Assembly: GCF_900111935.1 (NCBI RefSeq)
Contig: NZ_FOYN01000001.1
Span: forward strand, 790,069-854,068
Length of the DNA stretch: 64,000 nt
Source: Halorubrum sodomense
Lineage (GTDB): Archaea > Halobacteriota > Halobacteria > Halobacteriales > Haloferacaceae
Direction: 5' to 3'
Position numbers and translations under genes: made by a program. The notes under the pieces are model-generated. The model made no database searches. It saw only the letters and a list, made by a program, of their open reading frames with translations, and had not been told where the DNA came from. Each line of letters starts with the position of its first letter. Position 1 is the stretch's first letter. Below are positions 58,258-62,332 of the stretch, piece after piece.

Positions 58258-58270
58258 CTTATATTAAATA
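58258..58270 (+). promoter_or_regulatory. TATA region of the PhiH1-like repressor gene
   Basis: CTTATATTAAATA centred 27 nt before ATG 58291. This favours 58291 over the in-frame ATG at 58270, which lies inside the box. Confidence 0.6.
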
Positions 58271-58290
58271 TGGGTGCGCCAGTGTATTAT

Positions 58291-58626
58291 ATGAGATATG
58301 CGGGAGAGTGGATGTCTGCTGCTGACGATCGGATTTTGGAGTATCTCTCTGAACACGAATCTGGTTCTCCAACGAAAATGAAGAGGGAGGGACCGATTCG
58401 ATATTCACGTGTTCAGGTCCACCGACGATGTAAGAAGCTAGCTGAAGAGGGTCTCGTCAAAGATCTCGGAAACGGTGTCTACATGATCACTGACGACGGT
58501 GAGGCGTATCTCGACGGCCGACTCGACACCGAGAATTGGACCTACATTGATGACGACAATGATGCCGTCGAGGCACAGAACCCGACGGACAGTGAGGCCT
58601 CGAACGGGGACGCCACCCGAATGTGA
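58291..58626 (+). CDS. PhiH1 repressor-like winged-helix protein
   Basis: 111 residues from ATG 58291: MRYAGEWMSAADDRILEYLS, then RYSRVQVHRRCKKLAEEGLV and GNGVYMITDDGEAYLDGRLD. This is the haloarchaeal virus PhiH1 repressor-like family, common in proviruses, plasmids and islands. The C-terminal 35 residues are polar. Codon use is more AT rich than in the flanking housekeeping genes, as in the genes that follow. It could repress the restriction-modification genes downstream, but this is inferred from position. Confidence 0.78.
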   Translation: MRYAGEWMSAADDRILEYLSEHESGSPTKMKREGPIRYSRVQVHRRCKKLAEEGLVKDLGNGVYMITDDGEAYLDGRLDTENWTYIDDDNDAVEAQNPTDSEASNGDATRM

Positions 58627-58646
58627 GTTATAGATCTATACAAGGG

Positions 58647-59050: not shown

Positions 59051-60262
59051 ATGAGTCAGCAGGACCTGACCTACGTCGATCTGTTCGCGGGAGCGGGCGG
59101 ACTCTCCGTCGGCCTCGAACGCGCCGGCTTCGAGCTCGTCCACGCGGTCGAGGTCGACGACGACGCCCGCGCCTCGTTCGCGAACAATCGCGAGGGTCTG
59201 GAACCGACGGAGCTGACACAGGACATCCGCGGGGTTGACAACCAGGATGTCACCGAGGTCGTCGGCCGCGACACCGTCGACCTCGTCGCCGGTGGCCCGC
59301 CCTGTCAGGGGTTCTCCGAAGTGGTCAGCCCCGACGGCAGCGACGACCGGAACCACCTCTTCGTGAACTTCATCTCGTGGGTGAACGAGCTCGATCCGAA
59401 GGCGGCACTGTTCGAGAACGTTCGCGGGATGCAAAACACCGCCGACGGGAAGTTCCTCGACGCCGTCGAGGAGTCGTTCGGCGAGATGGGCTACGATGTC
59501 AGCTACCGCGTCGTAAAGGCGTCCGACTTCGGCGTCCCGCAGCAGCGTCACCGCCTGCTGGTGCTCGCGACGAAGCGCTCGACGACCGAGTTCCCCTTCG
59601 ACGGCTTCGAGTTAGACCCGATCGAGACCCCCGGCGTGATCGCCGGAATCGGCGACCTCCCCGAAGTCGGTCCCGGCGAGGAGAAGACCGAGTACGACGT
59701 CGAGCCGACGACGGTCATCCAGGATGACCTCCGCGGCGACAACACCGATCTCACCCACCACCAAGCCGCGAACCACACCGAGGACATGGTGGAGATGATT
59801 TCGCACATCTCTGACGGTGGAAACCGAACCGAGATCCCGGACGAGCTCCAGCCGTCCTCGGGCTACCACAACTCCTACTCTCGACTCGACTCGCGGGAGC
59901 CGGCCGTCGCGATCACCTCGAACATGTCGAAGCCCTCTAGCGCCCGGTGTATCCATCCGTTCCAGCATCGCGGGCTCACACCGCGCGAGGGGGCGCGCTT
60001 ACAGACGTTCCCCGACTGGTACCGCTTCGATGGCGGCCTCGTCTCGGTCCGGAAACAGATCGGGAACGCGGTGCCGCCGTACCTCGCGGAGTCCGTCGGC
60101 TACTACCTCAAGCAGAGCGTCTACAGCCAGACGCTGACCGACGAGGAGCGAGAGCGCATCTACAAGCTCCGCTGTGGTGGGATGGACCTCGCCGAGTTCG
60201 AGGAGGAGAAGTCGGATATCGGCGGCCACGCGCAGCAGGTCACGCTTGACTTCGCTGACTAA
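59051..60262 (+). CDS. DNA (cytosine-5) methyltransferase
   Basis: 403 residues. Motif I is YVDLFAGAGGLSVGLERAGF; motif IV is VAGGPPCQGFSEV with catalytic Cys85; motif VI is ALFENVRGMQNT; motif VIII is PQQRHRLLVLATKR. IX and X are RGLTPREGARLQTFPDWYRF and KQIGNAVPPYLAES. All catalytic elements are present, so it should be active. It methylates cytosine at C5 in a short site set by the variable region (about 230-290). Two genes with nuclease-like motifs follow on the same strand, which suggests a type II system. Confidence 0.95.
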   Translation: MSQQDLTYVDLFAGAGGLSVGLERAGFELVHAVEVDDDARASFANNREGLEPTELTQDIRGVDNQDVTEVVGRDTVDLVAGGPPCQGFSEVVSPDGSDDRNHLFVNFISWVNELDPKAALFENVRGMQNTADGKFLDAVEESFGEMGYDVSYRVVKASDFGVPQQRHRLLVLATKRSTTEFPFDGFELDPIETPGVIAGIGDLPEVGPGEEKTEYDVEPTTVIQDDLRGDNTDLTHHQAANHTEDMVEMISHISDGGNRTEIPDELQPSSGYHNSYSRLDSREPAVAITSNMSKPSSARCIHPFQHRGLTPREGARLQTFPDWYRFDGGLVSVRKQIGNAVPPYLAESVGYYLKQSVYSQTLTDEERERIYKLRCGGMDLAEFEEEKSDIGGHAQQVTLDFAD

Positions 60263-60425
60263 TAGGAGTCGAATAGTTTTCTGGCAGATTCCAAAAACAA
60301 CCTCGGAAGCGCCATCGGAATCAGTCCCAGTAGGGAACGTCTAGCGTGAATTTTCCTCTACTTAGTTTCTCGTTTTCCAATGCCAACTTTTCTAAGCGTG
60401 TCTGTTGACCGGACAGTATACGCAG

Positions 60426-61616
60426 ATGAGTAGATGGAGCGACGATCGTGCCGACCACGACGATGAAGCGATAGAGATGTTTTTACAGAGCCATTTCCCG
60501 GCCACCTATTTCGGGAATCAATCGGATCTGTCGGCATCCGACGGCTTTGGCGATGGGATCTCAGACGCTGAGCGCAATGTGATTGATGCGCTCGTTTCTG
60601 AGGCGGGGACGCAGTTCGCATCTTCGAAAGGGACGCTAGGGCTCGCGATCGACTTTGTTGTCCTCGCCGAAGAACTGGCAAAGTACGACGACTGGCTGGC
60701 CGGTTTTAACCCTGACATCACTGTCGACGACATCCTCGACCGCTACGAGAGCACGGCGAAGTCGTCGCTGACACTGAAACGCGGTGACACTCGGGAAGGG
60801 ATCCGAGCGTTCCACAACGAGCTGATCGAACTGTTCCGGGAGGACCTGAACCGAACCAATTTCCCGAGCTCACCGGGCCACCACACCGGCGAGTGGGAGC
60901 GGTACGACGACATGCTCGAACTCGCGTTCCGGCTCTCTCGCGACGGTCGCTTCGTCGCCGCACAGGAACTCTTCGACCTCGGTCTAGAGCGGTTGGAATC
61001 GAGCGAGTACGAACGGCGTGACCCGCCGTTCGAAGAGCCCTTCCTGAAGGTACTCCGAGACTACACACGCAAGGCCCCAAATGAACAGGGCGGATCGGCG
61101 TACCAGGCACTCTGTTACGGGTACGTCAAAGCGGAGTGGCCGCACTTGTCTCTCCGCGCGAGTAAGGTCCGAACCGGCTCCTCGCGTCAACAGCGGTACG
61201 GCGACATTGACGGGTACCACGGTCCCGACCTCATGATCTCGGTCGAGGTCAAGGACCGCGTTATCGATGAATCGAACGTCAGTGCCGAACTCGGCACGAT
61301 GATGAAGGTCGCACAGAACACGACCGCCATCGCCATCGCGATCTGTACAGAGGTGAGTCCGGAAGCCCGCGAAACGCTCGAAGAAGCAGATGTCCGGGTT
61401 CTGGATGACGAGGACATCAGCCGACAGCTTCGATTCTGGGACTACCACAAGCAGAACCGGGCGCTTCACGGGATGGTTCACTTCTTCGCCAACATCGAGG
61501 AGAATCCAGACGGCGTTCAGCGACTCTTACGGTTCGTTGCGAGCATCGACCCGGACAACCGCGTCCTCGACCATCTCGCTGACTCGGACGTACAGATGGG
61601 GCTCGACGAAACATGA
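60426..61616 (+). CDS. putative restriction endonuclease, PD-(D/E)xK-like (gene 1)
   Basis: 396 residues from ATG 60426. A nuclease-like core is seen late in the chain: GYHGPDLMISVEVKDRVIDE gives Pro-Asp (267-268) and Glu-Val-Lys (274-276), followed by AIAIAICTEVSPEARETLEE. The N-terminal 200 residues are helical. Layout around the EVK strand recalls SacI-type restriction enzymes, from memory only. It lies 163 nt after the methyltransferase and overlaps the next gene by four bases. It could also be a specificity or accessory protein; activity is not shown. Confidence 0.6.
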   Translation: MSRWSDDRADHDDEAIEMFLQSHFPATYFGNQSDLSASDGFGDGISDAERNVIDALVSEAGTQFASSKGTLGLAIDFVVLAEELAKYDDWLAGFNPDITVDDILDRYESTAKSSLTLKRGDTREGIRAFHNELIELFREDLNRTNFPSSPGHHTGEWERYDDMLELAFRLSRDGRFVAAQELFDLGLERLESSEYERRDPPFEEPFLKVLRDYTRKAPNEQGGSAYQALCYGYVKAEWPHLSLRASKVRTGSSRQQRYGDIDGYHGPDLMISVEVKDRVIDESNVSAELGTMMKVAQNTTAIAIAICTEVSPEARETLEEADVRVLDDEDISRQLRFWDYHKQNRALHGMVHFFANIEENPDGVQRLLRFVASIDPDNRVLDHLADSDVQMGLDET

Positions 61617-62332
61617 AGCGGCCAGAGGTCCGAGAGCGCTTCGTCAACCGCGACGCGGAACTCCCCTATGGACTCGAAGTCTCGCAGGTCGTAAGCGCGA
61701 TCGAGAGCTTCTACGAGTACTGGCACGAGGTGAATGAGTGGCACCTCGAACAAGGGTACGGACGGTTCCACGAGCAGTTCCGAGCGAACAACGCGATTGG
61801 TGGCTTCGTCAGTCACCGACTAACCACTCGTTTTGCGGAAGAGTCTCCGGACTTCGTCCTCAACCGTCTCGACGACGGATACCCGGACTTGCTCTACGAT
61901 GGGACCGATCACGAATGGCCGGACAATTACGCAGTCAAGGATTCCGACAACGGTCCGGGCTTGGAAGTCAAAGCGTCGAAGGGGAACACGTTCTACGCAC
62001 ACCACAATGTCGAGGGGTGGCTCCTCGGAATCCACTATCGGATAAACGCGCGGAGCAAGTCCACCACGGACGACGCCCCCGCCCCGAACAAGACGCCGCC
62101 TATCGATGTCACACAGGTCCTGTGCGCGAGCATGGACCACGAGGACTGGGAGTACCGCGACGCCGAGGGCTCGAACCGGACGAACACCAGCGAGCTAAAG
62201 GCGAAAGTCGGGCTTCACGAGATGCGGAAGAACCCGATCATCGAGATGGAGTCTGCGATTACCGGAGTGGGAGATCTCCTTCGAGAGTACAAACAGGCCC
62301 ACGCTGAGTTCGACCCAGACTACTCGGTATAA
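61613..62332 (+). CDS. putative nuclease, PD-(D/E)xK-like (gene 2)
   Basis: 239 residues from ATG 61613, overlapping gene 1 by four bases (ATGA). GYPDLLYDGTDHEWPDNYAV and GPGLEVKASKGNTFYAHHN give Pro-Asp (91-92) and Glu-Val-Lys (118-120) with a following Ser-Lys, the usual spacing of a restriction-fold active site. TTSELKAKVGLHEMRKNPII-like helices end it, split by position. No family is recognised. Either this or gene 1, or both as a heteromer, may be the endonuclease of the unit. Confidence 0.55.
   Translation: MKRPEVRERFVNRDAELPYGLEVSQVVSAIESFYEYWHEVNEWHLEQGYGRFHEQFRANNAIGGFVSHRLTTRFAEESPDFVLNRLDDGYPDLLYDGTDHEWPDNYAVKDSDNGPGLEVKASKGNTFYAHHNVEGWLLGIHYRINARSKSTTDDAPAPNKTPPIDVTQVLCASMDHEDWEYRDAEGSNRTNTSELKAKVGLHEMRKNPIIEMESAITGVGDLLREYKQAHAEFDPDYSV

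Follow-up and report, generated by a model that had tools for sequence, protein, structure and literature searches.

A second nuclease gene behind a haloarchaeal C5 methyltransferase-endonuclease pair, probably an accessory from an unrelated restriction-modification family

Why does a restriction-modification (R-M) locus with a single methyltransferase carry two genes for nuclease-like proteins, and how is the second of them tolerated? This question is raised by the window, a stretch of 64,000 nucleotides of haloarchaeal chromosomal DNA (genome G000, contig 9), in which a C5 cytosine DNA methyltransferase (MT) is followed by two putative nucleases, designated R1 and R2 (Table 1). All three genes are intact and co-oriented (59051-62332), and those of R1 and R2 overlap by 4 bp (ATGA). 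A first-pass annotation had described a possible R-M unit, in which a complete C5 methyltransferase precedes two overlapping genes with a PD...ExK core each, and had offered a heteromer or an accessory enzyme as explanations.

Table 1. Features of the locus and its boundaries, with positions in the window
Feature	Position	Strand	Evidence or remark
Genomic island	57611..62555		adjoins tRNA-Val 3' end; missing from relative G132
Winged-helix (wHTH) protein, HVO_A0261_N / PhiH1-repressor type	58270..58626	+	sub-threshold Pfam PF25213, HTH_45
S87, small protein, linked to R2b	58647..58910	-	conserved; no Pfam/NCBIfam/PADLOC match
MT, C5 cytosine DNA methyltransferase, 403 aa	59051..60262	+	Pfam DNA_methylase 5e-65; PADLOC MTase_II PDLC03234 1.3e-103
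R1, type II restriction endonuclease (predicted), 396 aa	60426..61616	+	PADLOC REase_II PDLC03399 2.2e-32; EcoT38I-like predicted fold
R2 (R2b type), putative accessory PD-(D/E)xK nuclease, 239 aa	61613..62332	+	33-40% identical to R2a; dN/dS 0.055
Partial tRNA-Val 3'-end copy, 28 bp, 93%	62418..62445		blastn-short
tRNA-Val (GAC)	62556..62630	-	ARAGORN; island boundary

The cassette lies in an island of about 4.9 kb, which ends at tRNA-Val. The corresponding site in G132 is empty, since the counterparts of window positions 56951-57610 and 62556-63969 (L125, 6547-7199 and 7321-8709) are only 121 bp apart there. The short copy of the tRNA-Val 3' end is a possible att remnant. In G026, the cassette also adjoins this tRNA and has a larger left part, and in the metagenome-assembled genome (MAG) SW_8_68_21 it adjoins tRNA-Lys. 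The cassette genes from wHTH to R2 showed a GC content of 53-65% compared to 71-74% for the flanking genes, in agreement with the AT richness noticed in the first-pass annotation. The winged-helix gene, which had been called a PhiH1-like repressor, is real as an open reading frame and has homologues in L053, L055, L057 and other loci, while the repressor type stayed below the threshold (PF25213 with 21.5 bits compared to a cut-off of 35); the protein is a possible regulator.

MT was recognized by Pfam with 220 bits (cut-off 22) and by TIGR00675 with 183 bits (cut-off 100.65). For R1, the listed open reading frame begins with TTG at 60405, while the ATG at 60426 agrees with the homologues and with the numbering used before. 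R1 was found in 22 of the 391 genomes of the class, and MT adjoins it, often divergently, at all 20 R1 loci examined, i.e. those read out beside the window. This excludes a methyltransferase that always stands alone in relatives. An intact R2 was missing at 18 of these 20 loci. The MT-R1 pair is also present on the pleolipovirus Halfgib1 (MW344766, L132), where R1 is annotated merely as a hypothetical protein, and in Microvirga a relative of R1 lies behind a DNA methyltransferase. Individual loci showed further peculiarities. In G357, about 30 residues of R1 (L053:7460-8740) are duplicated in frame and in tandem immediately past the catalytic core, beside a decayed R2. In G176 (L054:2264-5883), MT and R1 are separated by two inserted genes of 427 and 779 aa, and in G251 (L057:2038-5846) two large genes adjoin the pair, which by their N-terminal sequences are OLD-like (ATPase) and GHKL-like and possibly represent another defence unit. 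For R1, a dN/dS of 0.064 was determined. Based on the consistent linkage of both genes, MT and R1 are regarded as a complete and conserved type II R-M pair, whose activity is predicted.

A comparison of the predicted structure of R1 with known structures by Foldseek led to EcoT38I (7e8r, E 3.5e-6, prob 1.0), with three EcoT38I chains on ranks 1-3, though with TM values of merely 0.27-0.33. The sequence search of the PDB gave nothing useful for R1, while its profile gave a sub-threshold hint to EcoT38I. The first-pass annotation had pointed to SacI. This hint led to the right neighbourhood but was itself weak, as the catalytic part of R1 reached 12 bits with Pfam RE_SacI compared to a cut-off of 19.3. 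R1 resembles the type IIP enzymes EcoT38I and SacI in the paired DNA methyltransferase and, for EcoT38I, in predicted fold and catalytic region, at about 12% identity, a TM of about 0.3 and a score below the RE_SacI cut-off. Compared to these systems, the locus adds an extra nuclease and S87.

By analogy with EcoT38I and SacI, a palindrome similar to GRGCYC or GAGCTC is assumed as the recognition site of MT-R1. In 464 kb of sampled stretches, on which the site counts for the window's genome are based, GAGCTC was not depleted (0.94), and therefore GAGCTC as the site of MT-R1 is not supported. CTCGAG was strongly depleted in the same genome (0.28 of expectation; L095-L114 and the window). Since CTCGAG is also low at most haloarchaeal loci examined, except for L043, L053, L069 and L070, irrespective of the presence of these systems, its avoidance was dropped as a clue and is not attributed to MT-R1. 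CTAG, TGCA, AGCGCT and AGGCCT were also low in the window's genome. In the text searched, two surveys of haloarchaeal R-M systems (PMC6471742, PMC10609329) make no mention of SacI or GAGCTC, and they give no site for the MT-R1 pair.

Of 215 haloarchaeal proteins with lengths of 200-450 aa, 60 (28%) show the pattern PDx5-30[DE]xK; this background set includes the homologues of R1 and R2 themselves. By itself, the PD...ExK motif is thus weak evidence and not above chance, and real evidence comes from its invariance across homologues. Across 19 aligned sequences of R1, P267 D268...E274xK276 never varies, and the same holds for P91 D92...E118xK120 across 16 sequences of R2. Both cores were found at the residues originally given for them.

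R2 itself showed no family match in Pfam, NCBIfam or PADLOC, and matches to R2 were found in 13 of the 391 genomes. At all ten haloarchaeal loci outside the window's genus, restriction enzymes of the related R2a type are encoded convergently with an N4/N6 methyltransferase. One representative of each was scanned with PADLOC, resulting in REase_II PDLC03564 (1.7e-9) for R2a and MTase_II PDLC03215 (4e-85) for the partner, while the remaining ones were judged by eye and alignment. Together with the REase_II match of R1 (2e-32), this result for the homologues of R2 is in line with the R-M unit proposed at first. Plasmids of Rhizobium, Klebsiella, Acidiphilium, Pseudomonas and Gordonia carry the convergent arrangement as well. 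Directly behind R2a, the genomes G056 and G242 encode a second, diverged version of it (R2b), which is 64-72% identical to R2 of the window; G327 carries a remnant of R2b behind R2a, and G093 another diverged second copy. The second-nuclease copies and R2 of the window form one clade (support 98/99; R2b alone 83/76). Within the window's genus, R2b was detected in 4 of 52 genomes, in one of them as a remnant, always behind MT-R1, and it occurs nowhere else in the family. Judged by phylogeny and gene order, R2b is a subclade of putative add-on nucleases, each of which immediately follows another restriction gene.

Although R2 shares the invariant PD...ExK with the R2a family, it differs from it by its place in the second-nuclease subclade, by its position behind an unrelated C5 pair and by the lack of the N4/N6 methyltransferase, which is absent from the locus and from the window's genome (best E 0.39; no PF01555 match above the cut-off). 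This genome also holds four full-length C5 methyltransferases and, at another site (G000:C6:97659, L135), a gene product of 930 aa or more, which shows a methyltransferase motif of the DPPY type and which we take to be DUF1156-like.

R2 is under strong purifying selection, as can be seen from the comparison with MAG SW_8_68_21, which comprises 26 nonsynonymous and 81 synonymous changes. R2 has decayed to a remnant in G357 and R2b likewise in G327, which indicates that R2 is dispensable. In the structural model of R2 (pLDDT 77, pTM 0.80), the motif lies on the neighbouring strands 93-95 and 116-121. Entries of EcoRV lead the comparison with the PDB, but without significance (E 0.6-3.8, prob about 0.1). 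A fold unrelated to PD-(D/E)xK nucleases, which would have spoken against the first-pass annotation, is excluded for R1 by EcoT38I and for R2 only weakly (EcoRV, E about 0.6). The direct sequence search of the PDB with R2 gave nothing useful, the comparison of its model with a viral structure library no significant match, and the viral contigs no relatives of R2 or S87. An origin of R1 and R2 as mutual duplicates was rejected, since their profiles are unrelated (hhalign probability 0.25%).

The small divergent gene mentioned in the first-pass annotation, S87, turned out to be real and conserved, with relatives in 8 of the 391 genomes. These comprise all six genomes with R2b, intact or as a remnant, and two others, G176 and G334, which have MT-R1 alone. 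If the genomes were independent, which they are not, the chance of finding S87 in 6/6 would be about 6e-12; three families are involved. S87 follows R2b at a short distance downstream in G056 and G242, and in G056 a 190-aa protein without family match is located between the two (L043:9318-9890). In G327, a single deletion has removed the larger part of R2b along with the 5' portion of S87. Whole or as a remnant, R2b was never found without S87 sequence, while S87 outlives intact R2b in G357. Since S87 accompanies R2b in 6/6 genomes and occurs otherwise in only 2 of 391, R2b and S87 together have the appearance of an accessory module that has been added to R-M systems of two unrelated kinds, as far as gene content indicates.

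Altogether, it is considered probable that MT-R1 is a type II R-M system and that R2 is an accessory nuclease from an unrelated R-M family, placed there with S87. As most carriers have MT-R1 alone and R2a systems also occur without R2b, R2b would be accessory to both. Beyond this architecture, we infer the following steps. MT would methylate cytosine C5 in a short palindrome, presumably similar to GRGCYC or GAGCTC, and R1 would cut the unmethylated sites. R2 would derive from R2b, the second nuclease that arose by duplication in the family comprising R2a and the N4/N6 methyltransferase; having reached MT-R1 together with its partner S87, it would be translationally coupled to R1 through the 4-bp overlap. 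It would act as a separate catalytic unit, presumably as its own homodimer and not as a subunit of R1, and may add a second cut against incoming DNA. Since the old methyltransferase is missing and R2 is maintained, either MT would also cover the sites of R2 or R2 would not be free to cut. In the former case, a second nuclease would have come under one methyl mark, while in the latter S87 would be the natural candidate for an inhibitor holding R2 in check.

Two PD...ExK proteins from overlapping genes behind one methyltransferase could also be the subunits of one heteromeric enzyme, each responsible for a strand or a function, as in type IIT enzymes or LlaJI, and with BbvCI and LlaJI there are precedents (PMC4081073, PMC11779793). 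However, the predominance of MT-R1 without intact R2, the unrelated profiles and the pairing of R2 relatives with R2a and another methyltransferase instead of R1 argue against it. LlaJI comprises two restriction endonucleases and two methyltransferases (PMC11779793), and type IIT heterodimers such as BbvCI and Bpu10I usually have two methyltransferases (PMC4081073). The locus resembles LlaJI in the two restriction genes of one R-M cluster and type IIT in the two distinct catalytic chains, which are predicted in the case of the locus. It differs from both in its single methyltransferase, from LlaJI in that its nucleases belong to different families and are found separately in relatives, and from type IIT in that the first nuclease stands with MT alone in most relatives; it was assigned to neither. 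Of the two explanations offered at first, the accessory enzyme fits best, while the heteromer is very unlikely and the least likely reading of all.

In the PrrC-EcoprrI system, a nuclease guards an R-M system. Following this logic, S87 might inhibit R2b, which would be released upon disturbance of the R-M system and harm the infected cell. In both cases, an R-M system would be accompanied by an accessory nuclease, possibly held in check, but PrrC is an anticodon nuclease, whereas R2b is a relative of PD-(D/E)xK restriction enzymes and S87 a candidate inhibitor only. The asymmetry between R2b, which never occurs without S87, and S87, which survives without intact R2b in G357, G176 and G334, is antidote-like; furthermore, the deletion in G327 hit both jointly, and R2b is associated with two R-M systems that are unrelated to each other. 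On the other hand, S87 belongs to no known family, is divergent from MT in the window and thus outside the R2 operon, and could equally regulate either R-M system, while independent cases are few. Such a guarding function is conceivable, though unlikely, and it is doubtful that R2b and S87 constitute a portable nuclease-plus-inhibitor module on unrelated R-M systems, set free as a further layer of defence once the host R-M system has been blocked. The missing cognate methyltransferase and the decay of R2b in G357 and G327 would also be explained if R2 were an inert or nearly inert leftover of a former R2a/N4-N6 system. This is quite improbable in view of the intact reading frame, the low dN/dS over 26 and 81 changes and the active-site residues, which are kept in the three members of the genus with a whole R2.

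Clusters with two restriction genes are already known from LlaJI and type IIT systems (PMC11779793, PMC4081073), and orphan type II restriction endonucleases have been noted in haloarchaea (PMC6471742). The literature searched contained no case in which a nuclease of one R-M family had been moved, along with a small companion gene, to a position behind a different R-M family. With R2 as the probable accessory nuclease, the locus would be an unusual hybrid of an ordinary methylase/cutter pair and a second nuclease from an unrelated system. It suggests that R-M systems acquire additional nucleases in modular form. Current annotation overlooks this, as neither R2 nor S87 is assigned to a family in Pfam, NCBIfam or PADLOC. 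A selected restriction-enzyme relative without its own methyltransferase would normally be expected to be lethal, yet R2 is kept, which makes the tolerance of the second nuclease a testable question: either two unrelated classes of methyltransferase would protect one site, or S87 would control R2.
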